NCBI GenBank assembly: GCA_003140895.1
Contig: PLLH01000059.1
Location: forward strand, 20,389-54,349
Direction of reading: 5' to 3'
Length of the DNA stretch: 33,961 nt
From: Elusimicrobiota bacterium
GTDB lineage: Bacteria; Elusimicrobiota; Elusimicrobia; F11
Shown: positions 2,791 through 29,030 of the stretch, piece by piece
How positions within the stretch are numbered: the stretch's first letter is position 1
Layout: the number at the start of each line of letters is the position of its first letter
Position numbers and translations under genes: made by a program
Notes under the pieces: generated by a model
The model's input: only the letters and a program-made list of their open reading frames with translations
What the model was told of the DNA's origin: nothing
The model's database searches: none

Positions 2791-3445
2791 GGAGGGCGGG
2801 GATCCTTTCCGCTTTAAGTTTAGCGGGGAGAATCAGGCTGAGGCGATCTTCCAAAAAGGTGAGGCATCGGTTGAGCGACGCGTCCGATAGAGACTCGGGC
2901 CCGGAAGGGAGGGCTTTTGCGCGGATTCCCAACATCGAGGTGAACGGGGACACGGAGGGGGCGCTTCCCGCTAATTTCAAAATGTTCATTGAGTGATCAC
3001 CATGCCCTAATTTTTTCAACATGTTCAATAAAAAAACCATCCATTCGATTCGTGGTTCAGTTGTGTTTTGCAGATTTTGGAGAGAGATCCGGAGGATATC
3101 ATAAACGTCAGCGGATGGGGCGCGGTAGGGGAGGAGCGCATCGACCACTTCGCAGCAGCGGGAGGCGGTTTCAAACGCGGGATACGACGCGCGCAGATGT
3201 TGATGGGAATCGATGAGGCGGCCGCCGATGAGCCGGGCAAAGGTTCCGTGAGGAGGGAGAAAGAGGTGAAAGTCCGCTTCGGTAAACGGTTCCGCCACCG
3301 CCCTCAATTTGGAGCCCATTTTTTGCCCGCCTTTGAGCGTGGCGATGACTTTCCCTTGATCCTTGAGAAAAAGGGTGAGCCGCGTGTCGGCCTCCAGATG
3401 GCGCGTTCGTTTTAAAACGATGCCGATGCCATTTTGAATCATCAT
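2783..3445 (-). CDS. recO: DNA repair protein RecO
   Basis: RecO helps RecR load RecA onto SSB-coated single-stranded DNA in RecF-pathway gap repair. The 220-residue protein has the typical N-terminal OB-fold opening ([20 protein letters not shown], then [20 protein letters not shown] around residues 40-60), followed by an alpha-helical C-terminal part with poorly conserved sequence. It is slightly shorter than the E. coli protein (about 240). No four-cysteine zinc site of the kind found in some RecO proteins is visible; only an adjacent CC pair (around 94-95) occurs. There are two adjacent ATG codons at the start; the first overlaps the stop of the upstream CNNM gene (ATGA), which favours it. 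The assignment rests on the N-terminal domain and length. Confidence 0.88.
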
Positions 3446-4431
3446 AGTTCATCCTTAATTTCGCCGACGATCGCTTCCAGGGCGTCTTGAAGCGTCACAA
3501 GGCCGATGACGTGAAAAGGAGTGGCGTCGTCCTTGACAAGGGCCATGTGATGCCGGCCGCTTTTGAAAACCCGGATTAAATCCGCCAGAGGCAGATCCGG
3601 GTGAACGAAATGAACCGGTCGCAGTAAGTCGGACAACACGACAAGCGAATCATTTCTCCAGGCCAAAAGAAGATCTTTGGAGTAGAGAAGCCCCGCGATT
3701 TTATCAATTGAGGAGGAGTAAACGGGAATTCGCGATAGTCCCGAGGCGATCGCTTTTTCGATAATTTTATTCATGGGTTCCAGCATTGAAACGCCAAAGA
3801 TTTCAGATCGCGGGATCATGACCGCGCGCACGGACAATTTTGCAAAGTCCAAAACATTATCCATAATTTTTTTTGAGTTGGAGGAAAGAACCGAATGGGT
3901 GAAGATTCTCCGCAATTCCGTTTCATGGAGAGTGAGAGGGTTCTTGCGCTGGCCTTGAACGCCATGGATGAGGAGGTTCGTTATCCATACCGAGGCCCGC
4001 GCGATGGGAGCCATGAGCCGGTTCCAGGCGTTCATCCAGGGCGTGATGCGAAGAGACCAGGAAATCGTGTGGTGTTTGGCCCAGACTTTGGGGAGAATTT
4101 CGCCGAAGAGAAGAATGAGGGACGCGGAGATCAGGCCGATGCCCAACGTGACGACAGATTGGCTCAACGGGATTTTTTTGGATAGGCCCAGGGCGGTGTC
4201 CGCCGCGATCACACCCACGGCGGCGTTGACGGCGTTGCCGGAAATGAGCAGAGTCGCCAGAACCAGGTCTGAATTTTTTTCCCATAACGCGAGAGACAGA
4301 GGTTTGGTTCGCTTCACTCGTTTAATTTGGGAGACGGTCAGTCCCGTGTAGGCCACCTCCGTCGCCGAAAAGAACGCCGCCAGAAGGACCAGGAGGCAAA
4401 AAGAAAAAAGTTGAAGGGTCAGCCAGTTCAT
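3442..4431 (-). CDS. CNNM/DUF21 and CBS-pair membrane protein (second paralog)
   Basis: Inner-membrane protein of the CNNM/CorC (HlyC-like) family, whose members are linked to Mg2+ or Co2+ efflux. The 329-residue sequence starts with a DUF21 membrane domain: a first helix ending in FFSATEVAYTGLTVSQIKRV, a second segment with LLISGNAVNAAVGVIAAD, and a third with LILLFGEILPKVWAKHH (the FGEI-PK motif is characteristic). A CBS pair follows, with VMIPRSEIFGVS, LSRIPVYSSSIDKIAGLLYSKD and the closing VIGLVTLQDALEAIVGEI. The protein ends directly after the second CBS domain, so the C-terminal CorC_HlyC domain usual in about 430-residue family members is missing. It lies in tandem with a related gene upstream (4-nt ATGA overlap) and overlaps recO downstream by 4 nt. 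The transported ion cannot be told from sequence. Confidence 0.88.
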   Translation of the reverse strand: MNWLTLQLFSFCLLVLLAAFFSATEVAYTGLTVSQIKRVKRTKPLSLALWEKNSDLVLATLLISGNAVNAAVGVIAADTALGLSKKIPLSQSVVTLGIGLISASLILLFGEILPKVWAKHHTISWSLRITPWMNAWNRLMAPIARASVWITNLLIHGVQGQRKNPLTLHETELRRIFTHSVLSSNSKKIMDNVLDFAKLSVRAVMIPRSEIFGVSMLEPMNKIIEKAIASGLSRIPVYSSSIDKIAGLLYSKDLLLAWRNDSLVVLSDLLRPVHFVHPDLPLADLIRVFKSGRHHMALVKDDATPFHVIGLVTLQDALEAIVGEIKDEL

Positions 4432-5462
4432 TTGGGTTGGAGGGCGACGTCGTATTCATCCAGGATTTCGCCCGTTATTTCCTCCAATACGTCTTCGAGG
4501 GTCACGAGGCCCACGATGTGGTTGTCCTGGTCATGAACAAAACCAGCGTGGACTTCGCTTGTTTTAAAATCTTGAAGGAGGTCGTTCACGGAGCGGTCGG
4601 CTCGCACGTTCATGGCTTTTCGAATGAGCGTGAGAAGGTCTCTTCCGTCGTCTGTGGCGATCAAGGGAAGAACGTCGGCCGTGTGAATAAATCCGATGAT
4701 GGTTCCGTTGAATTTGATCGGGGTCCGGGTGTGGCCGTTTTCGACGATCAGGTCCAGAACGGTGTCTCGGTCCCGCCCCGGTTTTCCAGGGGGGTCCAGC
4801 TCGACAACGTCCACGGCCGAAAGTTTCGTCATGATGCTCTCGGCTTTCCGGTCATTGATTTCAAGAACGCGTTGCATCATGCCGAGGGAGTCGGGCGAAA
4901 CGCTGGCATTCCCCTGCCCTTCATCGAGGAGTCCTTTCAATTCGTTTATGCTGAAAGTGAGCCCCGGCGCGGCGCGCGGCGTTTTCCAGCGTTCGGAGAA
5001 GAAGTCCATGAATCCGTTGATGGCCGGGAGAAGCGGCGCCATCGGTTTTTTTATAACGAACAAGAGAGGGAGAACGAACAGGCTGGCTTTTTCCGGGCTG
5101 GAACGGGCGATGAGTTTCGGCACCATCTCGCCGAAGATGACGATCAAGAAAGTGATGGCAAGCCAGACGAGGAGTTCGATCTGAGAGAAAATCTGGGTGC
5201 CGACGAACTTCACCGTCCATGAGGTGACAAGGGAAGCGAAGAGAATGTTGATGATCGTGTTGCCGATGAGGATGGTGGTCAATAGCTCGTGCGGTTTGTC
5301 CAGCCACCTTAGGAGGACAGCGGACAGTTTGGGGTTATGGAGGGCGAGCCGTTTCACTTTTTGGACGGAAAGAGAAACAAGAGCTGTTTCCGATAGGGAA
5401 AAAAAGGCGCTTCCCAAAAGAAGCGTCATCGCCAGGGCGATTTCAATGGATAGGATCGTCAT
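4428..5462 (-). CDS. CNNM/DUF21 and CBS-pair membrane protein (first paralog)
   Basis: A second CNNM/CorC-family inner-membrane protein (344 residues), paralogous to the gene just downstream. The DUF21 domain shows FFSLSETALVSLSVQKVKRL near residues 19-38, ILIGNTIINILFASLVTSW and FLIVIFGEMVPKLIARSSPE (FGEM-PK). The CBS pair begins around ESIMTKLSAVDVVEL and ends with HIVGLVTLEDVLEEITGEI before a short tail. As in its neighbour, no C-terminal CorC_HlyC domain follows. It overlaps ybeY upstream by 4 nt and its paralog downstream by 4 nt. Family members act as dimers, so two tandem co-translated paralogs could form a heterodimer; that is inference. This gene next to ybeY, a PgpH-type gene and phoH matches an arrangement common in many bacteria. 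Confidence 0.9.
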   Translation of the reverse strand: MTILSIEIALAMTLLLGSAFFSLSETALVSLSVQKVKRLALHNPKLSAVLLRWLDKPHELLTTILIGNTIINILFASLVTSWTVKFVGTQIFSQIELLVWLAITFLIVIFGEMVPKLIARSSPEKASLFVLPLLFVIKKPMAPLLPAINGFMDFFSERWKTPRAAPGLTFSINELKGLLDEGQGNASVSPDSLGMMQRVLEINDRKAESIMTKLSAVDVVELDPPGKPGRDRDTVLDLIVENGHTRTPIKFNGTIIGFIHTADVLPLIATDDGRDLLTLIRKAMNVRADRSVNDLLQDFKTSEVHAGFVHDQDNHIVGLVTLEDVLEEITGEILDEYDVALQPK

Positions 5463-5905
5463 GTGTTAGGAAACAGGATTGAAAAGACGCGCTCTTGAAT
5501 TTTCCACAGCGCTTTTTTTTCTTTCGGCGTTTTGTCGGAATACCCCAGGATGTGAAGCGTTCCGTGAATAACAAGCCGGGCGCACTCCTCGGCCGGCGAT
5601 TGGTTATACCGCGCGGCGTTCTTTTTGGCTTGCGGGAGAGAAATGAAGATATCTCCATTAAGCCGCGTTCTCTTTTTCCCTTGTTTTTCAAGGTAGGGGA
5701 ACGCAATAACGTCCGTATCATTTCTCTTTTTAAGGAAGGCCCGGTTGAGCGCGCGGATTGTTTTCGATTCCAGAAAGACAATGTTCAGTTCGTTAAGAGG
5801 GCCGCGGCGGGCGGCGCGGAGAGCTTCTCGAACGGTTCTTTTGATATGCAGGGGAGAGAGCGGGACCCGGCCGAGTCGCCCCCGTTTGTGGACCTGAACG
5901 TTCAC
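5459..5905 (-). CDS. ybeY: Endoribonuclease YbeY, rRNA maturation factor
   Basis: YbeY is a single-strand-specific metallo-endoribonuclease involved in 16S rRNA 3'-end maturation and 70S ribosome quality control. The 148-residue protein has the family core: the NELNIVFLESKTIRALNRAF region, TDVIAFPY (around 64-71), GDIFISLPQAKKNA and the metal motif HGTLHILGYSD at 114-124. The first two ligands, H114 and H118, are present, but the third position is Asp (D124) instead of the usual His; from memory, a GYxDKTP variant of this motif is also common in Bacteroidetes. Four-nucleotide overlaps link it to the PgpH-type gene upstream and the CNNM gene downstream. Neighbourhood with phoH is typical of ybeY. 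Confidence 0.93.
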   Translation of the reverse strand: MNVQVHKRGRLGRVPLSPLHIKRTVREALRAARRGPLNELNIVFLESKTIRALNRAFLKKRNDTDVIAFPYLEKQGKKRTRLNGDIFISLPQAKKNAARYNQSPAEECARLVIHGTLHILGYSDKTPKEKKALWKIQERVFSILFPNT

Positions 5906-7440
5906 TGTGGAGATAGTTCGTCTTCCCGGCCTTTGGGGAGAGAAGAGCCCGCGTCCGGATAGGCCACCCGCGCGTGATGGAGCGTCGTGAGCGTTTGAGT
6001 GAATCGTTCCGCCACCGTGTGGAGGTCTTTGAGGGTGAGCGAAGTTTCGTCCAATTGGCCATCAAAGAGTTTCTTGTTGATAATTTTATAGGCCAAGTCC
6101 TGAAACCGTTGGTGGTTCGGTTCCTCAAGGCTCCGGCTCGCGGCTTCGACAGAGTCGGCCATCATGACGATTCCGCTCTCTTTGGTCTGAGGTTTCGGGC
6201 CTGGGTACCGGTATGTTTCTTCGTTCACCTCAAGTTGGTCTTGTTCAGCTTCTTCTTTGAGCTCCAACGCTTTCCGATAGAAATATTCGATTTGGGATGT
6301 TCCGTGATGCTGGGGAATAAAATCAACAACCTGTTGGTCCAATTTGTGTTGTTGGGCTAAGGCCACCCCCTCTTTGATATGCGACGTGATGACCAATTTT
6401 GAGAGAGACGGGCTCACCTGGTCGTGCGGGTTGGGAAACGTCCCTTGATTTTCAATGAAATATTCTGATTTCACGATTTTCCCAATGTCGTGAAAATAAG
6501 CGCCCACGCGGCAGAGAAGTCCGTTGGCCCCGATGGCGTTCGCGGCGTCCTCCGCCATGGAGGCGACGATCAGGGAATGGTGGTACGTCCCCGGCGCTTC
6601 CAGGCTCATTTTTTTAAGAAGGGGATGGTTCACGTCCGCCAGGCCCAACAAGCGTAAGTTGGATGTTCGAGAAAAGAAACTTTCGAGAAAAGGAAGCGCT
6701 CCCAAGCAAAAGAACGCGGCCAGGAAACCACTGCCGAAGGCCGAAAGGGCGGCAACGAGCGTGGTGGGCTTGTCCCATTTCAGGCTGACAGCCAGAAAAA
6801 CAACCGTGGCCATTTGAATCACCCCCACGTAAAAGCCGGTGCGGGAAACGTCATGGGAGGTGCGGGAACGGCTCCCGGCGGCCACGGCCATGACGCCGCC
6901 GATGGTTCCGAAAAGAGCCAAGGGGAGAGAAAAGCCGTTGCTGATGCCGCAGATGATCGCCGTGACAACCGCCACCACGACGGCCATGCGCTGATGAAGA
7001 AGGAGAGCGGTGAGAAGCGGCGCGATGCAGACCGGCGTGAGATAAGGAGAGACCCATTTGAACTGATGAGAGAGAAACGTGATGCCGACGATCCAGAAAA
7101 GGGTTGTGATGATGGAAACCGAGAGGAGGGCCATGGCGTCGTCATTTTTGGCCAGATCGGCGTGGTCTTTGATGAGGTAGAAAATAAACAGCCCCATTAA
7201 AATGAGGATGAACAAAGACATGGCCAGGATTTGAGTGAAAGACAAATCGAGGCTGAATGAAATGGCGGTGGTGATAATGACGGCGGAAACAACGCCGACG
7301 ATCACCGGGGGAATGTGGATTTCGGTTCGATACCAGGGGCGTTTTTGGAGCCGCGGCGTTTGCTTTTCGATGGCGTCGAGCCAAAGAAGCGTGTGAGCGA
7401 GACATTTTTTACAGAGGTCGATCACGGTTTGCGTCATCAT
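5902..7440 (-). CDS. PgpH-type membrane HD phosphodiesterase, short form (predicted c-di-AMP hydrolase)
   Basis: Membrane protein with six or more hydrophobic helices between about residues 45 and 255, followed by a cytosolic HD hydrolase domain. The HD domain begins at NHPLLKKMSLEAPGTYHHSL (271-290) and includes the metal motif YFHDIGK (HD at 317-318), ITSHIKEG, QHHGTS, then IVMMADSVEAASRSL, an arrangement seen in the 7TM-HD family. PgpH of that family hydrolyses the second messenger c-di-AMP. At 512 residues it is about 200 shorter than typical PgpH: the N-terminal extracellular HDED sensor domain is absent, leaving membrane helices plus catalytic domain. It sits 3 nt after phoH and overlaps ybeY by 4 nt, the usual phoH-pgpH-ybeY order. 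Two adjacent ATGs exist at the start. Family membership is firm; substrate is inferred. Confidence 0.9.
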   Translation of the reverse strand: MMTQTVIDLCKKCLAHTLLWLDAIEKQTPRLQKRPWYRTEIHIPPVIVGVVSAVIITTAISFSLDLSFTQILAMSLFILILMGLFIFYLIKDHADLAKNDDAMALLSVSIITTLFWIVGITFLSHQFKWVSPYLTPVCIAPLLTALLLHQRMAVVVAVVTAIICGISNGFSLPLALFGTIGGVMAVAAGSRSRTSHDVSRTGFYVGVIQMATVVFLAVSLKWDKPTTLVAALSAFGSGFLAAFFCLGALPFLESFFSRTSNLRLLGLADVNHPLLKKMSLEAPGTYHHSLIVASMAEDAANAIGANGLLCRVGAYFHDIGKIVKSEYFIENQGTFPNPHDQVSPSLSKLVITSHIKEGVALAQQHKLDQQVVDFIPQHHGTSQIEYFYRKALELKEEAEQDQLEVNEETYRYPGPKPQTKESGIVMMADSVEAASRSLEEPNHQRFQDLAYKIINKKLFDGQLDETSLTLKDLHTVAERFTQTLTTLHHARVAYPDAGSSLPKGREDELSPQ

Positions 7441-7443
7441 GGG

Positions 7444-8391
7444 TTAACTCAATCCTTTCCCGTTTTCGTGGGTTTCGTACGCTTCGATGATTTTTTGAAC
7501 GAGTTTATGCCGGACCACGTCATCTCCATTAAACCACGTGAAGTGGATTCCGTCGACATTTTTCAATATCGCTTCAAGCGTTGAAAGCCCTGACTTCTTT
7601 TTGTTGTCCAAATCGATTTGGGTCAAATCGCCGTTGATGATCATTTTGGAATTGTTGCCCATCCGAGTGAGGAACATTTTCATTTGTTCCGGGGTCGTGT
7701 TTTGCGCTTCATCCAGGATGATCACCGACCCATCCAACGTGCGCCCCCGCATGTAGGCCAAGGGGACGATTTCGACGATATCATCTTCCCGCATGAGCCT
7801 GAGCCGTTCCGGCCCCACGATCGTGAAAAAAGCGTCATAAAGCGGACGAAGATACGGATGGACTTTTTCGTACAGGTCGCCCGGTAAAAAACCCAATTTT
7901 TCTCCCGCTTCAACGACGGGGCGGGACAACACGATTTTGCTGAACCGTCCCGAATCGAGCTCCGCCAGGGCGTAGGCCACGGCCAAAAATGTTTTCCCGG
8001 TCCCCGCCGGCCCGATACCGATCACCAGATCGTGCCCGCTCATGGCGTTCACATAATCTTTTTGATTTTGAGTGCGGGGAGAAATATGGGCGCCGGTGAT
8101 CGCTCGGATAATGACGTCTTTTCGCCGATCCTCTCCTTTGTCTTCGAAATCACTGAAGAGCGGATTCGCCGGGAATTGGCGTTTCGTTTCAAGGGCGGAG
8201 ACGGCCTTGTCGATTTGCGGAGGGCGTCCCCGGATGGCCAGCGTCAGACCTTCGCCCGATGGAAGCGACGAGGGCCGGACGAAAAATTGCACATGGTGGC
8301 GTCGTTCGAGTTCTCTGAGATTTTGATCGTTTTGTCCAAACAGGGACAGCGCTTCTTCCTGGCTGTTTAGATGAATCCGTTTGGTCGTCAT
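7444..8391 (-). CDS. phoH: PhoH-family P-loop ATPase
   Basis: PhoH-like protein, a cytosolic P-loop NTPase related to superfamily 1 helicases and commonly encoded next to ybeY; its exact role (probably RNA metabolism) is not settled. The sequence shows a Walker A motif GPAGTGKT at 127-134, RPVVEAGEKLGFLPGDLYEK, a Walker B GSVIILDEAQNTTPEQMKMF, and SKMIINGDLTQIDL, all PhoH hallmarks. The reading frame stays open upstream to 8520, but I chose the ATG at 8391 because it overlaps the aspS stop in an ATGA and gives a 315-residue protein of normal length; the extra 43 upstream residues (arginine-rich, low complexity) are the out-of-frame end of aspS. The pgpH-like gene starts 3 nt downstream. Confidence 0.94.
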   Translation of the reverse strand: MTTKRIHLNSQEEALSLFGQNDQNLRELERRHHVQFFVRPSSLPSGEGLTLAIRGRPPQIDKAVSALETKRQFPANPLFSDFEDKGEDRRKDVIIRAITGAHISPRTQNQKDYVNAMSGHDLVIGIGPAGTGKTFLAVAYALAELDSGRFSKIVLSRPVVEAGEKLGFLPGDLYEKVHPYLRPLYDAFFTIVGPERLRLMREDDIVEIVPLAYMRGRTLDGSVIILDEAQNTTPEQMKMFLTRMGNNSKMIINGDLTQIDLDNKKKSGLSTLEAILKNVDGIHFTWFNGDDVVRHKLVQKIIEAYETHENGKGLS

Positions 8392-10253
8392 TGAGGCGGA
8401 GATTCCTTTGTCGGGAGGGGAACGTTTTTGGGGACCGGCGCCGTCGGGCGAGGTTGAGCGATTCCCAGTTCTCTCAATTGTTTTTGTTCCGCGAGTCCTG
8501 GCGCCCCGCTCACGAGGCACGTTCCCTTGGCTGTTTTCGGGAACGCGATGACGTCCCGAATCGACGGTTCGCCCACCAAGAGGGCGATCAACCGGTCCAG
8601 TCCGAGCGCGATCCCGGCGTGAGGCGGCGCTCCCGCTTCAAGCGCTTCCATGAGAAACCCGAATTTCTCGTCGGCGCTCGTTTTGTCGTGGCCGATGAGT
8701 TCCAAAATGGTTCGCTGAACGTCCGCCTGATGGATACGAACGCTGCCTCCGCCCAGTTCGGTGCCGTTGAGAACGAGGTCATAGGCGCGCGCGCGGAATT
8801 GCCCCAGCGGGGACGCGGGGTTGGTGACTTCGGTTTTGGCGTTCAGTGTTTTGAGCGTGGAGAGATCGTCCGGATGCGGGGACGTGAACGGATGATGGAC
8901 GCTCACCCATTTTTTCTCCTCATCGCTCCACTCAAAGAGCGGGAAATCCGTTATCCAAAGCATGTGCGCTTCATCTTTGAGCGCCGGCGGATTGTTTTTG
9001 ACGACAAAGGTGTTCCAGAGATGAAGACGAAGCGCTCCCAGAACATTTTCCGCCAGGATTTTTTTGTCGGCCACGATGAAAATGATATCTCCCGGCTCCA
9101 CTTTAAAGGCGGCTTTGAGCTGATCCATTTCTTCCGGCGAGAGGAATTTGGCGATCGGCGATTCAACCTGCCCCTTCGGATCCATCTTCAGCCAGGCCAA
9201 GCCTTGAGCGCCGACCGACTGCGCGAACTTGGTGAGGTCGTCCACTTCTTTGCGTGAGAAGGACGCGCCCCCTTTATGGAGAAGGCCCTTGACCACGCCG
9301 CCGTCGGACAAGTTCTTCTTGATCCGTTCAAAGCGGGTGTTGGCGAAGATGGCGCTCACGTCTTGAATTTCCGTTTTGATGCGCAGGTCCGGCTTGTCGG
9401 AGCCGTACTTCGTCCGGGCTTCATTATAAGAGAGTCGAGGAAGCGGGAGTTTGATGTCCATCCCAATGGCTTTTTTGAATACGTGAGCCACGAGCTTTTC
9501 AATCAGCGCCATCACATCGGCTTCTTCAACGAACGACATTTCAAGATCGATTTGGGTGAATTCCGGTTGCCGGTCGGCTCTTAAATCTTCATCCCGAAAA
9601 CAGCGCGCTATTTGGAAATACCGGTCAAACCCGCCCACCATGAGAACTTGTTTAAAGAGTTGAGGCGATTGAGGGAGCGCGTAGAAATGGCCGGGAGAGA
9701 GCCGGGATGGGACGAGAAAGTCTCTGGCTCCTTCGGGGGTTGATTTCGTGAGCATGGGCGTTTCGATTTCCAGGAATCCTTCGTCGCTCAACGTTTGCCG
9801 GACAGCTTGACTCACGTCGTGCCGGAGGCGCATGTTCCGTTGAAGCTGAGGCCGGCGGAGATCGAAATAGCGGTATCTCAGCCGGACCTCTTCGGACGCC
9901 TGCGTGTATTCGGATATTTCAAAGGGAGGCGTTTTGGCTTCGTTTAAGAGAACCAGCGTCTCGGCCACGACTTCGATGAGGCCGGTCGATAAATGCGCGT
10001 TTTGGGTTCCTTCCGGCCGAAGGCGGACTGTGCCTGAAACGTGAATGACAAATTCGCTTCGGAGTTGCTCGGCGCGTTTAAAAAGATCCGCCGGTTCCGG
10101 GTTAAACACGAGTTGAACCAAGCCTGTCCGGTCCCGGAGGTCGATAAAAAGAACGCCCCCGTGGTCCCGACGGGCGTGCACCCACCCGGCCAGGGTGACC
10201 TGTTGGCCGACCCGGTTTTTGTCGATATGGCCGCAATACGATGTTCTCATCAT
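8388..10253 (-). CDS. aspS: Aspartyl-tRNA synthetase (bacterial type, predicted non-discriminating)
   Basis: Class II synthetase that attaches aspartate to tRNA-Asp. The 621 residues include the N-terminal OB anticodon-binding domain (GWVHARRDHGGVLFIDLRD, 23-41), the catalytic core (RYRYFDLRRPQLQRN; FLVPSRLSPGHFYALPQSPQ; FRDEDLRADRQPEFTQIDLE), the bacterial GAD insertion (about 290-430), and motif 3 (GIALGLDRLIALLVGEPSIRD). His31 and Gly82 are the residues reported to relax tRNA specificity in the non-discriminating AspRS of Pseudomonas aeruginosa, so this enzyme may also charge tRNA-Asn with aspartate, to be amidated by GatCAB. Neither asnS nor gatCAB is in the window. Two ATGs lie at the start. 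The gene starts 17 nt after panC and overlaps phoH by 4 nt. Confidence 0.97.
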   Translation of the reverse strand: MMRTSYCGHIDKNRVGQQVTLAGWVHARRDHGGVLFIDLRDRTGLVQLVFNPEPADLFKRAEQLRSEFVIHVSGTVRLRPEGTQNAHLSTGLIEVVAETLVLLNEAKTPPFEISEYTQASEEVRLRYRYFDLRRPQLQRNMRLRHDVSQAVRQTLSDEGFLEIETPMLTKSTPEGARDFLVPSRLSPGHFYALPQSPQLFKQVLMVGGFDRYFQIARCFRDEDLRADRQPEFTQIDLEMSFVEEADVMALIEKLVAHVFKKAIGMDIKLPLPRLSYNEARTKYGSDKPDLRIKTEIQDVSAIFANTRFERIKKNLSDGGVVKGLLHKGGASFSRKEVDDLTKFAQSVGAQGLAWLKMDPKGQVESPIAKFLSPEEMDQLKAAFKVEPGDIIFIVADKKILAENVLGALRLHLWNTFVVKNNPPALKDEAHMLWITDFPLFEWSDEEKKWVSVHHPFTSPHPDDLSTLKTLNAKTEVTNPASPLGQFRARAYDLVLNGTELGGGSVRIHQADVQRTILELIGHDKTSADEKFGFLMEALEAGAPPHAGIALGLDRLIALLVGEPSIRDVIAFPKTAKGTCLVSGAPGLAEQKQLRELGIAQPRPTAPVPKNVPLPTKESPPQ

Positions 10254-10270
10254 GTTCGTTTAAGGTGTGT

Positions 10271-11125
10271 TCAGCGAGTTACGAGAATATTGTCAATGAG
10301 TCGCGTCGTTCCCAGTCTAATGGCCGCCGCCAACAACGCGGGAGCTCTGGGCGATTCGCATTTATGGAGCGTTTTGGGATCCACCAACTCAATGTAATCG
10401 ATCTTAACGTTTGGAATGGTTAATAGAGTGGATTTGATCTGGTGGCGAAACTCACGGAGGCTCATTTTGCGGGGTGATCTTAAGAGTTTTCGCCCCCGTT
10501 GTAAAGCCGCATAAAGCAGAGGGGCCACCTTCCTTTCCTGCGGGGATAAGAGGGTGTTCCGGCTTGAACGGGCGAGGCCGTCGGAATCTCTCACGGTGGG
10601 ACACCGGATGATGGTAATCCCCATGTTTAAATCCTCGTTCATTTGCTCGATGATGCGGACTTGCTGATAGTCTTTGAGTCCGAAATAGGCTTGGGTAGGC
10701 CGGACCAGATTAAAAAGCTTGGCGACCACGGTGGCGACGCCGGAAAAGTGCGCGGGACCCCGGGACGAGGGAGCCCCGCAGAGCGTGTCCGTGAGATCCT
10801 TGACGATGACGCTGGTGAGAACGTCGTTGGGATACATGGCCTTGGTGTTGGGGGCGAACAAGACATCCACGCCGGTCTTTTTCAATAGAGCCGTGTCTTT
10901 CCTGCGGGGGCGGGGGTAACGCGCAAAGTCTTCTTTGGGGCCGAATTGAATGGGATTGACGAATAGGGAGACGACGGTGAGGGCGTTTTCCTTTTTAGCT
11001 CTCTTGATCAAAGACAAATGTCCGTCGTGCAAAGCGCCCATCGTGGGAACAAAGCCGATGGACCCGCGAGCCGGAAGGCGTTTTCGCCAGGATTGGATTT
11101 GATGGGGGGTTGTTAACGTGATCAT
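10271..11125 (-). CDS. panC: Pantothenate synthetase (pantoate--beta-alanine ligase)
   Basis: Joins pantoate to beta-alanine with ATP to give pantothenate, the last step before coenzyme A synthesis. The 284-residue length is normal. Signature segments: GFVPTMGALHDGHLSLIKRA with the HIGH-like HDGH at 33-36, VSLFVNPIQFGPKEDFARYP, HFSGVATVVAKLFNLVRPT, YFGLKDYQQ, and the KMSKS-like loop DSDGLARSSRNTLLSPQER. The loop has Arg where many homologs have Met (AMSSRN), a minor change. It lies 19 nt after panB, as in many pan operons, and 17 nt before aspS. PanD, which supplies beta-alanine, and PanE are not in the window. Confidence 0.96.
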   Translation of the reverse strand: MITLTTPHQIQSWRKRLPARGSIGFVPTMGALHDGHLSLIKRAKKENALTVVSLFVNPIQFGPKEDFARYPRPRRKDTALLKKTGVDVLFAPNTKAMYPNDVLTSVIVKDLTDTLCGAPSSRGPAHFSGVATVVAKLFNLVRPTQAYFGLKDYQQVRIIEQMNEDLNMGITIIRCPTVRDSDGLARSSRNTLLSPQERKVAPLLYAALQRGRKLLRSPRKMSLREFRHQIKSTLLTIPNVKIDYIELVDPKTLHKCESPRAPALLAAAIRLGTTRLIDNILVTR

Positions 11126-12639: not shown

Positions 12640-12765
12640 TGTTTGATTGTGTCCGTGTGTTGAACATGTGACACGCGGTGGCCGAGAGGGCAATTTGTCC
12701 TAACCCGTCATCGGAGAAATGGAGTAGAAGCAAGTTGTATTAAGACCTTAAGGAGGTCAAACCAT
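12640..12765 (+). promoter_or_regulatory. Structured 5' leader with Shine-Dalgarno inside a hairpin
   Basis: The leader upstream of the small protein gene can form at least two hairpins. One pairs GTGTC (12649-12653) with GACAC (12670-12674), extended inside by GTGT/ACAT. The other is GACCT (12744-12748) with AGGTC (12754-12758), whose loop and 3' arm contain the very strong ribosome-binding site AAGGAGG (12750-12756), 9 nt before the ATG. The short 5-bp stem could weakly mask the site or simply be breathing. No known riboswitch class was recognised. Confidence 0.4.
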
Positions 12766-13293: not shown

Positions 13294-14547
13294 ATGATCG
13301 TCAAGCACTTGCATCGGAATAAACGACAAGCCAGACGGAATGGCTCGATGATTTATATGGTGGTCATCTTTTTAGCCATGTTGGCGGCTATTCCGGTCAC
13401 CATGCAGTTTCTCATGGTTTCCAATCAAAGCACCGCCATGCAAGCCCATCAAGTGACACAGGCTCAAAACGTGGCGCGCGCCGGTTTAACCGAAGCCGTT
13501 TCCTGGTTCCGTCGACAAACGACTCAGCCGGTTCGCAGTTTTTCCGATCCCATCAAATATCCCTATCCCGATGCCGCTTTTTATCCTCGCGTCAGTACGA
13601 ATGCCGCCACCAGCGATACCCAGGATGAAACGATTGGATTGGTTAAAGAGTTCCAACTCTCCGAGGTCAATAGCCTGTGGGCCCGATATGAAGTGAAGAG
13701 GCAGAAAACCGCTGGAAACCCGGATCCCAGCGCCGTTCACGATGTGACGGCCAAGCGGATTGAGACCGCTCAGGCGGGGGAAGGTTTGGCGTGGTATTTG
13801 GAAAGCGCCGGCTATGTCTATCAAAAGAAGAGCGGGGCGGCGTATAACGTTCTGCCCAATGTCGTTGTCGGCAAGGCGCGCGTGGCCACGGAAATTCGCC
13901 GGTTGGCTTTGACGTTGCCGATCAACGCGGCGGCGATCGTGAATGCCCGAAACACGGTGAATGTTTTGGCTAACGGGAAACTCATCGGCGGGGCCAATAT
14001 CGGACTCGGATATTATACGGGGTCCTCCGGTCCGACGATATCGGGAAGCGGCGCCCAGGTGACGGGAACCACCGCCGCCAAATATGATATTGACGGCTCC
14101 TCAGCCGGGACGCTGAGCACCATCACCATTTTTGGCGTGACTCAAAATGAACTGAAGCTCATGGCCGATATCACCGTACAGAACTTATCTGATTTGCAAT
14201 CGGATTATCCATCTTTGGCGGTGGTCTACATCAATTCAGATGCGATATTTAATAATTCACGGGAACTTCGGGGCGGAGGAATCCTGTTCGTCAATGGGAA
14301 TTTGACGGTGGGTGCCGGTTCAAACGCATTGTTTAGCGGTTTTATTTATGTGACGGGGAACGCCACGATCAACGGAGACTGCTTGATTTCAGGGGGCATC
14401 GCCGTTCAGGGGAATTTGACCCTACAGGGATCGGGCGGAGTGGCTGAAGTCGACTTCGATGACAGTATTTTGAATTCCGTTCGCCAGCAAGTGGCTCAGT
14501 ATCGTGAAAACAAGGCCATGTATTACGTGTTCTCGGCGTTAAAATGA
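13294..14547 (+). CDS. PilX-like type IV pilus-associated membrane protein with beta-helical exterior
   Basis: First gene of a pilin-like operon. I chose the ATG at 13294 (417 residues) because AGGA lies 8 nt upstream and the N-terminus then has the PilX layout: a short basic stretch, RRNGSMIYMVVIFLAMLAA with one hydrophobic helix (about 19-41), and an amphipathic continuation ending in AQNVARAGLTEAVSWFRR (PilX proteins have a similar A-x-x-AGL/AE segment). No canonical prepilin G-[FI]-x-x-x-E cleavage site is seen. Near the C-terminus, glycine/asparagine-rich rungs such as LFVNGNLTVGAGS, FIYVTGNATINGDCLISGG and IAVQGNLTLQGSGG suggest a right-handed beta-helix. The next gene overlaps by 4 nt. 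Likely a minor pilus component facing the periplasm or outside; the exact role is inferred. Alternative starts are 13264 and 13186. Confidence 0.8.
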   Translation: MIVKHLHRNKRQARRNGSMIYMVVIFLAMLAAIPVTMQFLMVSNQSTAMQAHQVTQAQNVARAGLTEAVSWFRRQTTQPVRSFSDPIKYPYPDAAFYPRVSTNAATSDTQDETIGLVKEFQLSEVNSLWARYEVKRQKTAGNPDPSAVHDVTAKRIETAQAGEGLAWYLESAGYVYQKKSGAAYNVLPNVVVGKARVATEIRRLALTLPINAAAIVNARNTVNVLANGKLIGGANIGLGYYTGSSGPTISGSGAQVTGTTAAKYDIDGSSAGTLSTITIFGVTQNELKLMADITVQNLSDLQSDYPSLAVVYINSDAIFNNSRELRGGGILFVNGNLTVGAGSNALFSGFIYVTGNATINGDCLISGGIAVQGNLTLQGSGGVAEVDFDDSILNSVRQQVAQYRENKAMYYVFSALK

Positions 14548-17500
14548 TGATAAAAAAAATGCATTTCCTTCATCAGAAAGGCATCAGTTTGGTTGAGATC
14601 ATTATCGCCATGACGATTATGGCGATGGTGATGCTCTCTGTCGCTCGGGGATTTATGTTCATGAACCGCGCGACGGTGCAATCCAAGGAAAAATCGTTTG
14701 CCTCGCAGAAAGCCATCCAAATGATGGAGGAGTTGAGAGGTTTGATCGCCAACAAGAGCGACACCTCCATCGGCGTTCTCGACGATTACGATGACGGGGC
14801 CGTTTATAACACGATTCTGACGACGAAACGGGAAGTGACCAGTGCCGGCGATGTTCTGAGCGGCAATAACAAAGGAAAGTTCGTTCGCCGCGTGAACGTG
14901 ATCATGCTTCCGAACGAGCCTTTGGCGCGCCAGGTGTTTGTCCGTGTTTACCGAGCCAGCAACAAACAGGTGTTGGCGGAAACGGTCAGCGTGGTTCGAA
15001 CGATCAGCAACCAGTTTGTTAATACGCAGGTGTTCGACGTGTATATTCTGTCTCTCGAAAACGTGCCGGGGTGGTGGGTCTTGCTCTCTAGTATGAAGCC
15101 GATGTTCGACAACGTTATTCAGGATCTTCAAACGCGAAACCCCGGACTCGAATGGCGTCCCCATTGGGTGACGCGTTTGGCTTACGGCCGCGACCCGTTC
15201 TATACGCCTTACGTCAATGAAGATAAAAGAACCAATGAGGAAGTCATGCCGTGGATTTATTTTTATCCGGGGCTGACAGTACCGGATAGCACGGTGCCCT
15301 GTTTTTATTATGTTCCGAGCAGCATCGCCGGGCGCGTTAATATTGATGGCACGGTTCAAAATTCGTGGAGTTATTCGATCGCCGATCAGTACAATCACGC
15401 GGTTCGCTATCCCGATGAAGAAGCCATGTATACCGCCGCTGTGACGGCGGCGGAGGCGGCGGGAACGACGCCCCCGGAAATGAGCCTGCGGATGCTCCTT
15501 GAAAAAATGAATTCTCCAACGGGCGGCATGAACAACGCCATGATTGTTAATCTCCATGGCGAATTGATTCCTCTTCCTCCCATGCGCAATTACTCGGACC
15601 CGGCCAAAGATCCGGTTGGGCATGCCAATGTCCGCATTGTGACTCACCCGGAAAAGCTCCAATACGCGTCAGGTTCCGCAGTGAAGCTTCGCGCGTATGG
15701 TTATGTGACAAACCCGGGCAGTTGGGCTCAGGATGCCACGCTTTCAACCATGACGGTTCTTTTTCCCAGTACATTCATCAATCCCGGTAGCATCACGATC
15801 CGCAAAGCCGTCGGTAACGGGACGCTGGCCTACTCATGGCAAGCCACGACCGCCGGGGTAGGAAATGATTACACGATCACGAATCCCGGCGGAACGCAGA
15901 CCCTGATCACTCTTTTTAATACACCGCTTCGGACGGCGCTGAATGGAGGAAAAGGCTTGAACGCCACCAAGCGTCTTTATGGGTTGGAATATATCCCGTG
16001 TGATTTGAGCGCGGCGCCCGCATTCGTCGAAGGAACCCAGGATCTGACAACGACCGACGGCGGCACGGCCCGTCCCAAGAACACGGCGCGGTGGGGTATT
16101 CAAATCGCCGCTGGAGTCTTAAACGACGGGCAATACACCATTGAAACGCGGATGGATGATGATGTGACGACAGGGGTGTCCGGCAATGAGCCCACCAATT
16201 TATCCCGGACCTATGTGTGGGTGGGGCGAGCGCCGCCGGTCACGGAACAATTTCAATTCATGGGCGATCCGCGCCATATGCCTTATACGGATGTCAAAAT
16301 AAACATGGGGTACAACGTTTATTTCTCCACGATCGATACCGCCGATTATCCGGGGTTCACTGGCACCAGTAATCTCTGGAACGGCGGCCCCAATGTGGAC
16401 GTCCCGCGTTATTTTCAAATGTATCGGAGCGGCTTGCTCACGTCGTGGGGGCTCTGGACCAGTATTACCGGGTATTCGAATTATTATGTGGGGCTCGGCG
16501 GGGAGATGGGATACGACGCGTCGAATTCCTTCACGAACAGTCTTCCGATTATCCGAACGCCGTGGTTGCCGAGCAGCGCTGCTTCCGCGAACGTGAATGA
16601 AATTATTGATGGATTTACCGAGTCGTACCAGCGGGTTATTTCAAGCAATGACAATACCTGGTGGGGGCTCTTCTGGCTGGGAGAGTTGTATCCGGATTCC
16701 GCTTATGCGACGTGGAGCGTTAATGGGAATCTGCCGGTGGGAAGCGCTGCCACGAATTTTTATCGAGCTCGATATAATGCAAAAGGGTTTAGTTTTGATC
16801 CGATCAAAAGAACCAGTGACCGAGGGTGTTCTTCTTTCTTAAATGGGAATGCCACGGGGAATAATACAACCTATTTTAATCACGAATATTGGGATACGAA
16901 CAACGGGACCATCACCACGCCTGGATTAACGTTGGCTCAAGACTTTAACTTCCCCTTGTATGATTCCATGTTGGCCCGGCGTCCATTCCGATTAAATGCC
17001 ACCAATAACCAGCCTCCGGAATGGAACGTCGCGGCTTATTCCGGGACCCGCACGACTCTCACAACGCTTGAAACGTACTATGAAGCCCAGGGGAATGAAG
17101 CGACTCATGATTCCAGCGCGTTGCTTCGGATGAAACTGGGAACCAATGTGGCTACCATGGTTATGAATGGACTGTCCCCACAAGGGGTGGTGAGTAACGC
17201 GTTTATTTCAAAATTATGCGTTATTAACTTGACGCGGGGATTTTTGGCGGCGGGAGCGCCGGCCATCACGACGGCACGGATTCCTCAGCTTCCCACGGTC
17301 ACTATCACAGGTCCCTCCACGACCGATGCGTTTAACAATCCGAGCACCATCAACGTGGTGTGGAGCACGGCGTGGACGCGGTGGGATTCTCTGCCTTACA
17401 CAAGCGGGTATCCCGCGAGTTACTCGGAGTCAACGAGCCTTACCGGTAACGTCAAATATTCCAACGATAACGGCAAACATTGGTATTTTATCAATACGGA

Positions 17501-17672
17501 TGGGGTGGCGAAGGTCGGTGTCAAAAGCGCCGCTCAGGCGACGTTAAGCCCTATTTCATGGAACGTGTCGGCCCTGCCTCGCGGAACCTACGTCCTTCGC
17601 ATCGAAGTTTATCGGGATACGATTCCATTACATTACAGCTATGCCCAGCGCCAAGTTTATATTAAGCGTTAA
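14544..17672 (+). CDS. Giant prepilin-like protein (1042 residues)
   Basis: The N-terminus is a clear type IV prepilin signal: a 13-residue leader ending in K-G, cleavage before ISLVE (Glu at mature +5), then a hydrophobic helix IIIAMTIMAMVMLSVARGF. Pilins and minor pilins are normally 130-400 residues, yet this protein continues for about 1000 residues. After the helical segment (to about 80) comes a long, aromatic-, Asn- and Thr-rich region with no family I recognise. The last about 130 residues (from PTVTITGPSTTDAFNNPSTI) look like an Ig/FnIII-type beta-sandwich, with VKYSNDNGKHWYFI and SALPRGTYVLRIEVYRD. It overlaps the PilX-like gene by 4 nt and is followed after 3 nt by a second prepilin gene. 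A role as a pilus or pseudopilus tip protein, perhaps an adhesin, is inference from size, N-terminus and neighbours. Confidence 0.88.
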   Translation: MMIKKMHFLHQKGISLVEIIIAMTIMAMVMLSVARGFMFMNRATVQSKEKSFASQKAIQMMEELRGLIANKSDTSIGVLDDYDDGAVYNTILTTKREVTSAGDVLSGNNKGKFVRRVNVIMLPNEPLARQVFVRVYRASNKQVLAETVSVVRTISNQFVNTQVFDVYILSLENVPGWWVLLSSMKPMFDNVIQDLQTRNPGLEWRPHWVTRLAYGRDPFYTPYVNEDKRTNEEVMPWIYFYPGLTVPDSTVPCFYYVPSSIAGRVNIDGTVQNSWSYSIADQYNHAVRYPDEEAMYTAAVTAAEAAGTTPPEMSLRMLLEKMNSPTGGMNNAMIVNLHGELIPLPPMRNYSDPAKDPVGHANVRIVTHPEKLQYASGSAVKLRAYGYVTNPGSWAQDATLSTMTVLFPSTFINPGSITIRKAVGNGTLAYSWQATTAGVGNDYTITNPGGTQTLITLFNTPLRTALNGGKGLNATKRLYGLEYIPCDLSAAPAFVEGTQDLTTTDGGTARPKNTARWGIQIAAGVLNDGQYTIETRMDDDVTTGVSGNEPTNLSRTYVWVGRAPPVTEQFQFMGDPRHMPYTDVKINMGYNVYFSTIDTADYPGFTGTSNLWNGGPNVDVPRYFQMYRSGLLTSWGLWTSITGYSNYYVGLGGEMGYDASNSFTNSLPIIRTPWLPSSAASANVNEIIDGFTESYQRVISSNDNTWWGLFWLGELYPDSAYATWSVNGNLPVGSAATNFYRARYNAKGFSFDPIKRTSDRGCSSFLNGNATGNNTTYFNHEYWDTNNGTITTPGLTLAQDFNFPLYDSMLARRPFRLNATNNQPPEWNVAAYSGTRTTLTTLETYYEAQGNEATHDSSALLRMKLGTNVATMVMNGLSPQGVVSNAFISKLCVINLTRGFLAAGAPAITTARIPQLPTVTITGPSTTDAFNNPSTINVVWSTAWTRWDSLPYTSGYPASYSESTSLTGNVKYSNDNGKHWYFINTDGVAKVGVKSAAQATLSPISWNVSALPRGTYVLRIEVYRDTIPLHYSYAQRQVYIKR

Positions 17673-18696: not shown

Positions 18697-19293
18697 ATGT
18701 TAGAAGAATCGAAAAATGTTTCAGGTGAAGTGAGCGTGAAACCGTCGGTAAGACCCCCGTTTAAACGGCGCATTATTCTGATTAAACGGTCGCTCCAGAT
18801 GAAATACGCGGCGGTGATGTTTATCTTGTTCGCGCTGGCGGCCTTCACGGTGTGGTGGGAGGTGTACCAAAGCCTCTCGGGGCTCTCGGACAGCGGTTTG
18901 ATCACGGATCCAAATCTTATGACGATGGTGACCAAGATCAGCACGGTCGTTTTCATGAAAGTGGGGGCGCTCCTGATTTTGGTGTGGATTTTGTCGATCG
19001 CTCTGTCTCATTTCGTGGCGGGGCCGATTTATCGGTTTGAGACGAGTTTAAAGACGTTACGAACCGGTGATTTAACCCATCGCGTTTTTCTTCGAAAACG
19101 GGATGAGCTGAAAAACCTCGCTCAAGAGTTTAACGACACGATCAATGTCCTGCAGACCAACGTGCTTAACGATCGCAAGAAAATTGAAGGGCTTGCGGCG
19201 CGGCTTCAGGGGTTGGCGGGGAAAGTGGATTCAGCGGAGTTGCAATCCATTATCGCTGAACTGAAATCCGTCACAGCCTCTTTTAAAGCGTAA
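18697..19293 (+). CDS. Two-helix membrane protein with HAMP domain, no output domain
   Basis: A 198-residue inner-membrane protein. Two hydrophobic helices (about 36-56 and 84-108) flank a short periplasmic loop of about 28 residues. A HAMP-type linker follows at 109-153 (GPIYRFETSLKTLRTGDLTH, then DELKNLAQEFNDTINVL), and then a helical coiled-coil-like tail to the C-terminus. HAMP domains normally carry signals to kinase, cyclase or chemotaxis output domains, but none is present, so it may act by binding a partner. A strong AAGGAGG Shine-Dalgarno lies close to the ATG. It is 16 nt after the PilW-like gene and ends the operon before a terminator, suggesting a role with the pilin proteins. This position and domain make-up are seen; the function is unknown. 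Confidence 0.82.
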   Translation: MLEESKNVSGEVSVKPSVRPPFKRRIILIKRSLQMKYAAVMFILFALAAFTVWWEVYQSLSGLSDSGLITDPNLMTMVTKISTVVFMKVGALLILVWILSIALSHFVAGPIYRFETSLKTLRTGDLTHRVFLRKRDELKNLAQEFNDTINVLQTNVLNDRKKIEGLAARLQGLAGKVDSAELQSIIAELKSVTASFKA

Positions 19294-25968: not shown

Positions 25969-27801
25969 TTGGACCACACGAGTTCAAGTTCCACAGGAAT
26001 AAACCCGCGGATGTATTGCGTCCGTCGGCTTTTTTATGCCCTGACACTCTTTTTTGTTGGATTTCCACTCCTTCTTTCCGCTCAAGATGCTTCTCTTCGA
26101 GAAAAAGCGACCTCTTCCTCCACCGCGTCAACACGTCGGAAACGCCCCTTATCGCTTCAACGGCGGCAGGCTCGTGCTCAAAAGACGACCAGAAACGAAT
26201 CCCGGGCTGTGTCGTCGGCAACGCCGGCAGAACCGTCTGCGACGGAACCGTCCGCGAAACTCGAGGGGGTTCGTCAAAAAGTTGACGTTCAGTCGGTCAA
26301 CGCCACGTCGTGGGTTCGGGGCCGGGATAAAATGGCGTTGAGCGAGAAAGACAAGATCCGGACCGGTCTTCGCTCAACGGCGCGCGTGAGTCTGGAAGAC
26401 GGCTCCAAAATCCTTTTGCTCCAAAATTCCCAGGCTGAACTCGAAAACCTGTCTTCTGTTCAGCGGGCCATTAAGCTTTTGAAGGGCCGCGTGCGCGCGG
26501 TCGTGAAGAAATTACGGGGGCCGGGTTCCTTTAAGATTAAGACGCCGGTGGGCGTGGCCAGCGTGCGCGGGACCGAATTTGAAGTGGAATTCTCCGAAGA
26601 AGGCCAGGAGATGGCCGTGGACGTCTTGAGCGGGAGCGTCGGGGTTTCCAAGTTGGGTGAGTTGGCGGATGAAGTGGTTCTGCAGCCGGGGGAGCGGATT
26701 AAGTTCGGCCTTGAAGGGGTTATGGGGGATCCGATTCGTTCGGGCGCGATTCCCTTGAACCGGCAAGATATCCGGCAAGAGATCCAGATCGCGAGCGTCA
26801 AAAACGGGATCATCGCCCAAGCGGCGGAAGAATCCCGAAACGCGGATTATCAGGTCGGGAAAACGATGATGGACGTGGACGGAAAAAGAGTCCGCATCGA
26901 AGAGTACATCATGAGGCCCGCGGCGGATCAATTTAAGTTGGTTGTCCTTAATCACCGGGATTCCCGTTTTGATTATTTCACGTACAAAGGGACGTTCAAT
27001 AAAGATTTGCCGGCGGACCTCTCGGTGGCGCTCAAAGAAGTCGGAGGGAAGTTGGGGGCGACCGCTCCTGATTATTACCTCACGGGTTACGAGATGGTGA
27101 TGTCCAACACAAAGGACAATATCACCGACACCGCGTCCGGCGGGCATTTGGTCCAAATCCGAATTGATGGAGACCAATATGTTCTCACGAACACGGATTC
27201 CAGCGGGGTGACGACGGAAAAACGCGTGGACATCGCGGCGGGACAGGCCGATGGGTCGTATCGCGTGTACGATCCTCTCTCTGATAATTTCAAGCTCGTC
27301 ACGGCGGCCAACCTGACGGAGGCCAAAAAACTATCCATCCTGGATCCGGTGACCGATAGTTATCGTGATTTGGCCTCATCCGATTCCTATTGGAAAACAC
27401 GGTTTAACGACTACTCCTATAGGATCAATCAGACGCTCAAACAGACGTTTTCAAAAAAGTCGACGATGTCGAATACGCTGGCCATCGATTTGGACGCCAC
27501 CTGGACCAATTCTCCCGTGACGAGCATCTCGGAATATCCGTCCGGAACGGGGACGCTTTATAACCGGTTGAGCCTGTATTATCAGGACGGTTCCAAAACC
27601 GTTTTCGACAACTACATCATCAATGACAACGGAGACGTGGCGCCAGCCAGCCGTTTCGACGGGCTTTCCACCAGCACGGCGTATAAAAATGAGCTTCTGA
27701 AATGGAATTATCAGCAGAAAGTGAAATCGACGGAGATGAGCGATGAAATTAATCTGGTGGTGGATCCGCGGATCGGCACCATGTCGGGGTTGATGAAATG
27801 A
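25969..27801 (+). CDS. Exported FecR-domain protein
   Basis: First gene after the riboswitch. A Shine-Dalgarno AAGAGGA (25958-25964) ends 4 nt before the TTG at 25969, giving 610 residues; an ATG at 26011 (596 residues) is the alternative and gives a more compact signal peptide (MYCVRRLFYALTLFFVGFPL, cleavage near LSA-Q). Residues of about 45-100 are a Ser/Arg/Ala-rich, low-complexity linker. A FecR domain follows at about 105-245 (VNATSWVRGRDKMALSEKDK, RVSLEDGSKILL, KIKTPVGVASVRGTEFEVEF, QPGERIKFG). The remaining about 360 residues have no recognised domain. FecR domains occur in anti-sigma regulators and in surface-structure proteins; with a signal peptide, no transmembrane helix after it and no sigma gene nearby, the second is more likely. 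It overlaps the beta-barrel gene by 4 nt. Confidence 0.9.
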   Translation: MDHTSSSSTGINPRMYCVRRLFYALTLFFVGFPLLLSAQDASLREKATSSSTASTRRKRPLSLQRRQARAQKTTRNESRAVSSATPAEPSATEPSAKLEGVRQKVDVQSVNATSWVRGRDKMALSEKDKIRTGLRSTARVSLEDGSKILLLQNSQAELENLSSVQRAIKLLKGRVRAVVKKLRGPGSFKIKTPVGVASVRGTEFEVEFSEEGQEMAVDVLSGSVGVSKLGELADEVVLQPGERIKFGLEGVMGDPIRSGAIPLNRQDIRQEIQIASVKNGIIAQAAEESRNADYQVGKTMMDVDGKRVRIEEYIMRPAADQFKLVVLNHRDSRFDYFTYKGTFNKDLPADLSVALKEVGGKLGATAPDYYLTGYEMVMSNTKDNITDTASGGHLVQIRIDGDQYVLTNTDSSGVTTEKRVDIAAGQADGSYRVYDPLSDNFKLVTAANLTEAKKLSILDPVTDSYRDLASSDSYWKTRFNDYSYRINQTLKQTFSKKSTMSNTLAIDLDATWTNSPVTSISEYPSGTGTLYNRLSLYYQDGSKTVFDNYIINDNGDVAPASRFDGLSTSTAYKNELLKWNYQQKVKSTEMSDEINLVVDPRIGTMSGLMK

Positions 27802-29030
27802 GAACGTTGAACCTCTCCTCCCGATGGGCGGCGTCTTTGGCCTTGATCCCGGCTCTCGCGGCCGTCATCTCGGCGGGGCCGACCTATATTCCCGTCGCCA
27901 GCGGGCAATTTTATACCGGTCAATATTATTTCGACGGGAAGAAGAGCGCCCTGGCCGGAAACGCCGGGCTCACCTTTGTCCCCGCCCTTCGATATTCAAG
28001 CCGTTTTAGCCTTATCCCAACGATCGAGAGCCGGTACCGGGGAACCCGTTCCGCCGAAGAGTTGGCCGGAGGAACGACGTTGTTCCAGGATACATGGGAG
28101 AACGGGCTCAGCATCAAAGCCGTTCACGGGTTGGACCGCCACTGGAAAATCCGTGAAAACCTTGGCGTTCGAACGAAATGGTTCCGGGAAACAACGAACG
28201 AAACGTGGCGCAAAGGACTTTATGACTACCGGACGTTTGACGCCGGCGGCGAAGTGGAGCATAAATGGAGCCCGTCACTTTCGGTGGCGGGCGGGTATGA
28301 TTATTCGTTCCTGATGTTTCCCAATTATGAGTCGTTGGAATCCAATCAAAACAGCGATTTGGCTCGGGAGTATGCCGGGAAAGATGTGTTGAACGAGCAT
28401 ATCCATCTTTTCTCCCTTCGTTCCGAGACCCCGTTTTTCTTCGGACTTCATACGCAGACTCAACTCTACTATTCCCCGCGAAATTACACGGATCAACACG
28501 TTGTGGTATTGACCGGGCTTCTGACGGCGGAAAAACGGACCGACAGCGTGGTGGGAGGATCTTTGTCATTTGGACGGCCTTTCAAACTCAGCCAGCGCGC
28601 TTCTTTGGTCACCAATCTTGAATACGGCTATACGGGACTTAACTCCAATCAAAATCATTACGACGCGCGGCTCACCACCTTCATCGGCGATTTTTACGAC
28701 TACGTTCAAAACCAGGGGAGCCTTCAGTTGACGTGGGGTTTAAATGTGGGCGAGTCCGGACCTTTGACGTTTGAGACCGGAGTGTCTTATTCGAAGCGGA
28801 ACTATTCTCATCGGCCCATTCAATCGGCGGACGGAAATTATCTCAGTGAAAAGCTCAACGTGACGGAGACGGACATCAACATCGGCTTTGGATACCCGCT
28901 GTCAAAGAGTCTTCGTTTAAGGGTGATCTCGAATTTTGGACGAAGCCGCTCCAATAACCACTACGAGGCGCTGTACCGGTACAATTACTCGAACGCCAAT
29001 TACCTTTTCGGATTTACGTATGAATATTAA
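27798..29030 (+). CDS. Predicted outer-membrane beta-barrel protein
   Basis: A 410-residue protein with a signal peptide (MRTLNLSSRWAASLALIPAL, cleavage near ISA-G). The mature part is a run of alternating, aromatic-edged strands such as SLSVAGGYDYSFL, HTQTQLYYSPRNY, SLVTNLEYGYTGL, LTFETGVSYSKRNYS, DINIGFGYPL and LRLRVISNFGRS, and it ends in YLFGFTYEY with a terminal aromatic residue, as outer-membrane proteins recognised by BamA do. I estimate about 14-18 strands. No known porin or usher family was recognised. ATGA overlap with the FecR gene and an 11-nt overlap with the giant gene downstream indicate one operon and probably one complex. A role as anchor or export channel for the giant protein is inference. 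Confidence 0.85.
   Translation: MRTLNLSSRWAASLALIPALAAVISAGPTYIPVASGQFYTGQYYFDGKKSALAGNAGLTFVPALRYSSRFSLIPTIESRYRGTRSAEELAGGTTLFQDTWENGLSIKAVHGLDRHWKIRENLGVRTKWFRETTNETWRKGLYDYRTFDAGGEVEHKWSPSLSVAGGYDYSFLMFPNYESLESNQNSDLAREYAGKDVLNEHIHLFSLRSETPFFFGLHTQTQLYYSPRNYTDQHVVVLTGLLTAEKRTDSVVGGSLSFGRPFKLSQRASLVTNLEYGYTGLNSNQNHYDARLTTFIGDFYDYVQNQGSLQLTWGLNVGESGPLTFETGVSYSKRNYSHRPIQSADGNYLSEKLNVTETDINIGFGYPLSKSLRLRVISNFGRSRSNNHYEALYRYNYSNANYLFGFTYEY

Follow-up and report, generated by a model that had tools for sequence, protein, structure and literature searches.

What kind of protein is a prepilin of 1042 residues, and where would so large a subunit be carried? The question is raised by an open reading frame, here called BIG, in a 33,961-nt window of an Elusimicrobiota bacterium (GCA_003140895.1, contig PLLH01000059.1, positions 20,389 to 54,349, forward strand); the coordinates in Table 1 are positions in this window. 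The original prediction gave the frame a type IV prepilin N-terminus, and the frame, its length and its strand are as claimed. BIG begins with a basic leader, followed by the prepilin motif KG/ISLVE with Gly-1 and Glu5 and a hydrophobic helix; residues 10–33 match N_methyl (PF07963) at 23.6 bits, above the Pfam cut-off of 21.2. Beyond N_methyl no Pfam family was matched at E ≤ 1, and the best sequence match to a solved chain had an E of 2, nothing meaningful, with likeness confined to pilin N-termini; the large region said to belong to no recognised family remains one in both searches.

Among NCBIfam models the best N-terminal likeness was to PilV (TIGR02523), at 25.3 bits over residues 11–66 only and short of the equivalog score of 52.2; GspI (TIGR01707) gave 17.3 bits, below its equivalog score of 44.35, and sub-threshold N-terminal likeness to ComGE and HpsB was also seen. 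No NCBIfam model of the Verru_Chthon cassette, a set comprising TIGR02599 and further models that we take to be its members, matched BIG or four of its relatives.

Table 1. The BIG locus: features and their positions in the window.
Feature	Position	Strand	Basis
X, GspK/PilX-like membrane protein, 453 aa	13186..14547	+	Hydrophobic start without Glu5; glycine-rich beta-repeat-like C-terminus (by eye)
BIG, 1042-aa prepilin, I/V-type	14544..17672	+	1042 codons plus stop; N_methyl, NCBIfam N-terminal likeness, AlphaFold2 model
Class III leader of BIG, residues 1–13, cleavage expected after KG	14544..14582	+	N_methyl; Gly-1/Glu5 rows
BIG pilin module, residues 14–155 (helix 16–69 and antiparallel sheet)	14583..15008	+	AlphaFold2
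BIG residues 156–352, small alpha/beta domain	15009..15599	+	Model; most conserved part of the head; no clear fold match
BIG residues 353–568, beta-sandwich (cohesin/MSCRAMM/shaft-pilin type arrangement)	15600..16247	+	VIA-align
BIG residues 569–916, loop-rich conserved middle with WLGELYPD	16248..17291	+	Model, conservation
WLGELYPD motif, BIG residues 711–718	16674–16697	+	
BIG residues 917–1042, beta-rich C-terminal domain	17292..17669	+	Model
Asp-box, BIG residues 973–980	17460–17483	+	
W, PilW/GspJ-like prepilin, 334 aa	17676..18680	+	N_methyl over cut-off
HAMP-domain membrane protein, 198 aa, last gene of the run	18697..19293	+	Pfam

An AlphaFold2 model of BIG, built on a 53-row alignment (pLDDT 89.6, pTM 0.83), gives the N-terminus a pilin-like helix and sheet, with a single helix at residues 16–69 followed by strands at 113–122, 125–137, 143–152 and 161–169 arranged much as in a pilin sheet. 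Residues 353–568 aligned with 7wwn at a VIA-align Z of 8.4 (rmsd 3.5, 127 residues aligned) and with other chains at Z 6–8; as modelled, this sandwich is matched by many beta-sandwiches of surface and pilus proteins, a common arrangement that indicates no function. Set against the definition of a modular pilin, a pilin module joined to one or more domains that are not confined to pilins, BIG shows the pilin module and a sandwich with matches at Z 6–8; the remainder belongs to no recognised family. The C-terminus, earlier described as Ig-like, would on the model be better called beta-rich with an Asp-box, which is found near the C-terminal end in 44/53 rows.

Two candidate likenesses were set aside. 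A vWA domain, which occurs in PilB and in some PilY1 proteins, was suspected from the string DVY(L)LAIEN..NLHGE, resembling a degraded vWA, and was dropped as unsupported. Residues 155–356 folded alone (pLDDT 84) gave no Foldseek match at E ≤ 0.001; the best VIA Z was 5.2, to a natriuretic receptor lobe, and no vWA chain was among the matches listed. Kinship with Complement C3 or S-layer proteins was put forward by Foldseek E-values down to 4.9e-6, but with TM-scores of 0.07–0.11 and rmsd above 20; these matches are taken as repeated beta-sandwich likeness in the model and not as kinship.

The operon partners of BIG were thought clear from the outset, and this is borne out both by tight spacing and by the recurrence of homologs of X and W beside BIG in other genomes. 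The stop of X and the ATG of BIG overlap by 4 nt, 3 nt separate the stop of BIG from the start of W, and 16 nt lie between W and the HAMP gene. Profiles grown from the window proteins placed an X homolog directly upstream of BIG at 36 of the 53 loci with room, and a W homolog directly downstream at 52 of 58; X does not adjoin BIG at 17/53 loci with upstream room, and in L078 and L096 it is placed elsewhere. X matched no pilin model in Pfam or NCBIfam, and W reached 19.1 bits against 256.5 for TIGR02599, at the N-terminus only. We take X to be of the GspK/PilX type and W of the GspJ/PilW type, from the N-terminal pattern and the gene company. GspK lacks Glu5; a glutamate at +5 of X was found in 0/26 aligned rows, and W had both Gly-1 and Glu5 in 26/26 (each alignment comprising 25 relatives and the window protein, from 34 and 54 relatives extracted for X and W respectively).

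One locus (L029) carries two complete copies of the trio, one after the other, with X at 5058, BIG at 6437 and W at 10045 followed by X at 11432, BIG at 12703 and W at 16044. At 29 loci, and with no correction for common descent, pairwise distances correlate between BIG and X (r 0.90) and between BIG and W (r 0.77), which is a sign of joint inheritance and not of contact; mean identity is 40% for BIG, 36% for X and 27% for W. The HAMP gene is no conserved partner, with four profile matches in the 63 loci described below; a similar small HAMP-only gene follows W in L051, and few are found elsewhere. A fourth partner of about 1200 aa downstream of the trio in Planctomycetota was considered and rejected, as by eye four of five frames resemble serine/threonine kinases with additional parts and one resembles fused metabolic enzymes. 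Elsewhere in the window, a FecR-domain protein of 610 aa (25969–27801, +) overlaps a 410-aa protein that looks like an outer-membrane barrel by eye (27798–29030, +), and two adjacent CNNM-CBS membrane proteins (3445–5462, −) are ordinary.

A scan of named genomes, seeded with the patterns W[LI]GELYPD and FA[SAV][QE]K[AV][IA]Q[ML], gave 63 loci with BIG relatives, in Elusimicrobia, Endomicrobiales, Acidobacteria including Mor1, Thermoanaerobaculia, many Planctomycetota, candidate division FCPU426, one genome labelled Eisenbacteria and unplaced MAGs. Among 60 relatives searched, clear homologs were present in G003, G023, G022 (two copies), G032, G001 and G045, with best pieces of 39–63% identity. 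The 53-row alignment (A2) includes the window BIG; a near-copy, L056 (of L055), was dropped, and 10 of the 63 loci were excluded for masked letters, contig ends or broken frames (L048, L079, L098, L099, L102, L103, L104, L106, L107 and L109). Homologs above 800 residues with prepilin N-termini, which it had been proposed to seek, thus exist, with lengths of 1033–1414 (median 1173), Gly-1 in 52/53 rows and Glu5 in 51/53; L057 is gapped at its start and L068 has Asp in place of Glu5. A chance architecture is ruled out because the layout of BIG recurs in other phyla, and on this sequence evidence BIG genuinely belongs to the prepilin superfamily and carries a very large head that is conserved. 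BIG could instead be a prepilin-type anchor that remains lodged in the inner membrane without entering a filament; against this, Glu5, a residue tied to pilin assembly, is kept in almost every row and pilin-like partners are encoded alongside, and we consider an anchor role quite improbable.

Searches with a BIG profile (E ≤ 1e-30) found the protein in 9/147 genomes of its own class and in 17/149 from the phylum to which a Planctomycetota carrier belongs, and 5/60 genomes from that of an Acidobacteriota carrier had it at full length; the first of these counts shows that BIG is not a core machine part. Fifteen profile-chosen regions were taken and four repeats of earlier loci set aside, leaving 11 new relatives, all with a prepilin-like start (nine with Gly-1, two with Tyr) and with matches to the X profile in 10/11 and to the W profile in 11/11. 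The two with Tyr replacing Gly before the cleavage site (YFTL.E), L148 (G250; about 2118 residues) and L149 (G261; about 1462), carry large insertions. No description of the family was found in open-licence PMC literature, as judged by title and abstract among the matches listed.

Columns conserved at ≥ 90% number 20/155 in the pilin module, 47/197 in residues 156–352, 36/216 in 353–568, 47/348 in 569–916 and 19/126 in 917–1042; by this measure conservation in the head at least equals that in the pilin module. Such conservation across phyla would also fit a structural or an enzymatic role. Many polar residues are invariant or nearly so, including R205, H207, R216, N336, H338, H368, D575, E714 and D718, and the invariant His, Arg, Asp, Glu and Trp of the head might make up a catalytic site directed at a surface polymer; modular pilins bearing peptidase modules have been published (PMC8179133). 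However, searches with BIG yielded neither an enzyme family nor a convincing fold match, and the invariance of WLGELYPD is biased by seeding: W.GELYPD is present in 53/53 rows, partly built in as a search seed (the second seed pattern occurs in 6/53), by comparison with exact WLGELYPD or WIGELYPD in 3/11 profile-found proteins and variants in others. We hold a filament-borne enzyme to be a slim prospect.

The premise that prepilins rarely exceed 400 residues stands as a general rule, but long ones have been published (modular pilins of up to 860 residues, PMC8179133) and are present in this genome and class. At four loci (L034–L037), class members that lack BIG encode other long prepilins, with CarboxypepD_reg and lamin-tail-like domains, amid similar genes, an indication that large tips borne by pilins are common in this group. 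The similar operon place of these prepilins could also be read to mean that BIG is a species-specific adhesin with a fast-changing head, as the wording of the original prediction may imply. Host-specific adhesins do not usually show head conservation across phyla, however, and the BIG head is collinear across phyla, with the whole protein 33–63% identical to the query and the head as well kept as the pilin module; we regard this reading as very improbable. In the genome under study, a second long prepilin of about 1127 aa with CarboxypepD_reg is encoded on contig C44 (L033; 17–3430, −), and beside it an open frame (3533–10504, −) of 2323 aa or more looks by eye to be rich in fibronectin-like repeats. 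Further minor-pilin-like gene groups lie on C15 (L115) and C16 (L116), with one long frame of at least 926 aa at a contig end, which suggests that one machine is served by several tip cassettes as alternatives.

That machine appears to be encoded on contig C30. Seven N_methyl matches, including BIG, W and the long prepilin on C44, were found in the genome (2.53 Mb, 118 contigs), along with one complete T4aP gene set comprising PilB, PilT, PilC, PilA, PilD, PilM, PilN, PilO, PilP and PilQ, of which Pfam backs the ATPases, one pilin and the secretin; PilC, PilD and PilM–PilP were named by eye. Secretins were present in 29/30 carrier genomes (30 of the 63 loci were taken for this count and that of PilY1). 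A K-I-J trio without PilY1 is the situation of the T2SS (PMC10191384), and the secretins, with a high head conservation that suits a fixed partner, could likewise indicate a short secretion-type pseudopilus in whose tip complex the BIG head would recruit a secreted substrate, or push it, rather than act as an adhesin. Yet the one complete machine of this genome includes PilT and PilM–Q, and the second secretin match, on C109, is a 277-residue frame with no T2SS neighbours recognised by eye; we judge a pseudopilus unlikely.

PilY1 (PF05567) had no match in BIG or its genome and was found in 0/30 carriers and in 0/147 genomes of the class, which seems generally to lack it. As 14 control genomes were also negative, a second control was drawn from the phylum of G077, where 23/60 genomes had matches (18 over the cut-off); here PilY1 was present in 0/5 BIG carriers versus 23/55 non-carriers, a difference that is not significant (Fisher p 0.146). 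The proposal that BIG is a built-in adhesin replacing PilY1 thus agrees with the absence of PilY1 from the genome and class, but the exclusion test gives it no significant backing and few class genomes carry BIG; since most of the 147 without PilY1 are also without BIG, replacement is only compatible with these data. No ligand-binding domain family was recognised in BIG by the Pfam and solved-chain searches; an adhesin role is possible, as are a conserved ligand, substrate handling and catalysis.

Several known systems resemble the locus in part. At the T4aP tip, H-I-J-K minor pilins are capped by PilC/PilY1 (PMC10191384), and the GspK-GspI-GspJ/PilHIJK complex described there shares with the trio one Glu5-less and two Glu5-bearing pilin-like proteins; here, by contrast, the I/V-like member is enlarged, and no H/FimU-like gene was seen in the operon. 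PilC/PilY1 is a large tip-borne binding protein with a function like the one proposed for BIG, but is no pilin, and its C-terminal beta-propeller domain (PF05567) is the one absent from BIG. Modular pilins such as PilB of Streptococcus sanguinis present grafted domains and combine, like BIG, a small N-terminal pilin module with a large, likely tip-exposed extra part; the largest named in PMC8179133 has 860 residues in all, whereas BIG has a head of about 890 residues of no recognised family, cross-phylum conservation and a fixed gene trio. CofB of ETEC (PMC8179133) is a comparable case, a tip-located minor pilin of large size that contains beta domains, but it hands over to a secreted partner, and BIG matches solved chains by sequence only in pilin N-termini.

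On balance we favour, with moderate confidence, BIG as a giant I/V-type minor pilin, the enlarged subunit of a K-I-J tip complex with a binding head of its own. Judging from the motif, prepilin peptidase would remove the 13-residue leader; the helix and small sheet would join X (K type, no Glu5) and W (J type) in a K-I-J complex as in the T2SS and T4aP, as protein type and gene order suggest. This complex would prime and then cap the filament of the T4aP set on C30, and the head, shown at the tip, would bind a ligand much alike in all carriers, so that a pilin-borne head would do the job of the separate tip protein PilY1. Within a type IV pilus the tip is the probable place of BIG, a prepilin-type subunit with conserved pilin-like partners, and it is where the original prediction most easily put the large remainder. 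More tentatively, and with some doubt, X-BIG-W may be a distinct type IV filament tip, present in several phyla that have been little studied, in which priming complex and PilY1-like head form one pilin set. The head would then be joined to the I subunit, and its near constancy would reflect binding of a universal ligand or gating of the machine.

BIG would offer a concrete protein with which to study, in Planctomycetota and Acidobacteriota, how assembly begins and surfaces are bound in type IV pili that lack PilY1. Among modular pilins it would represent a new variant, whose large head has been kept across phyla.
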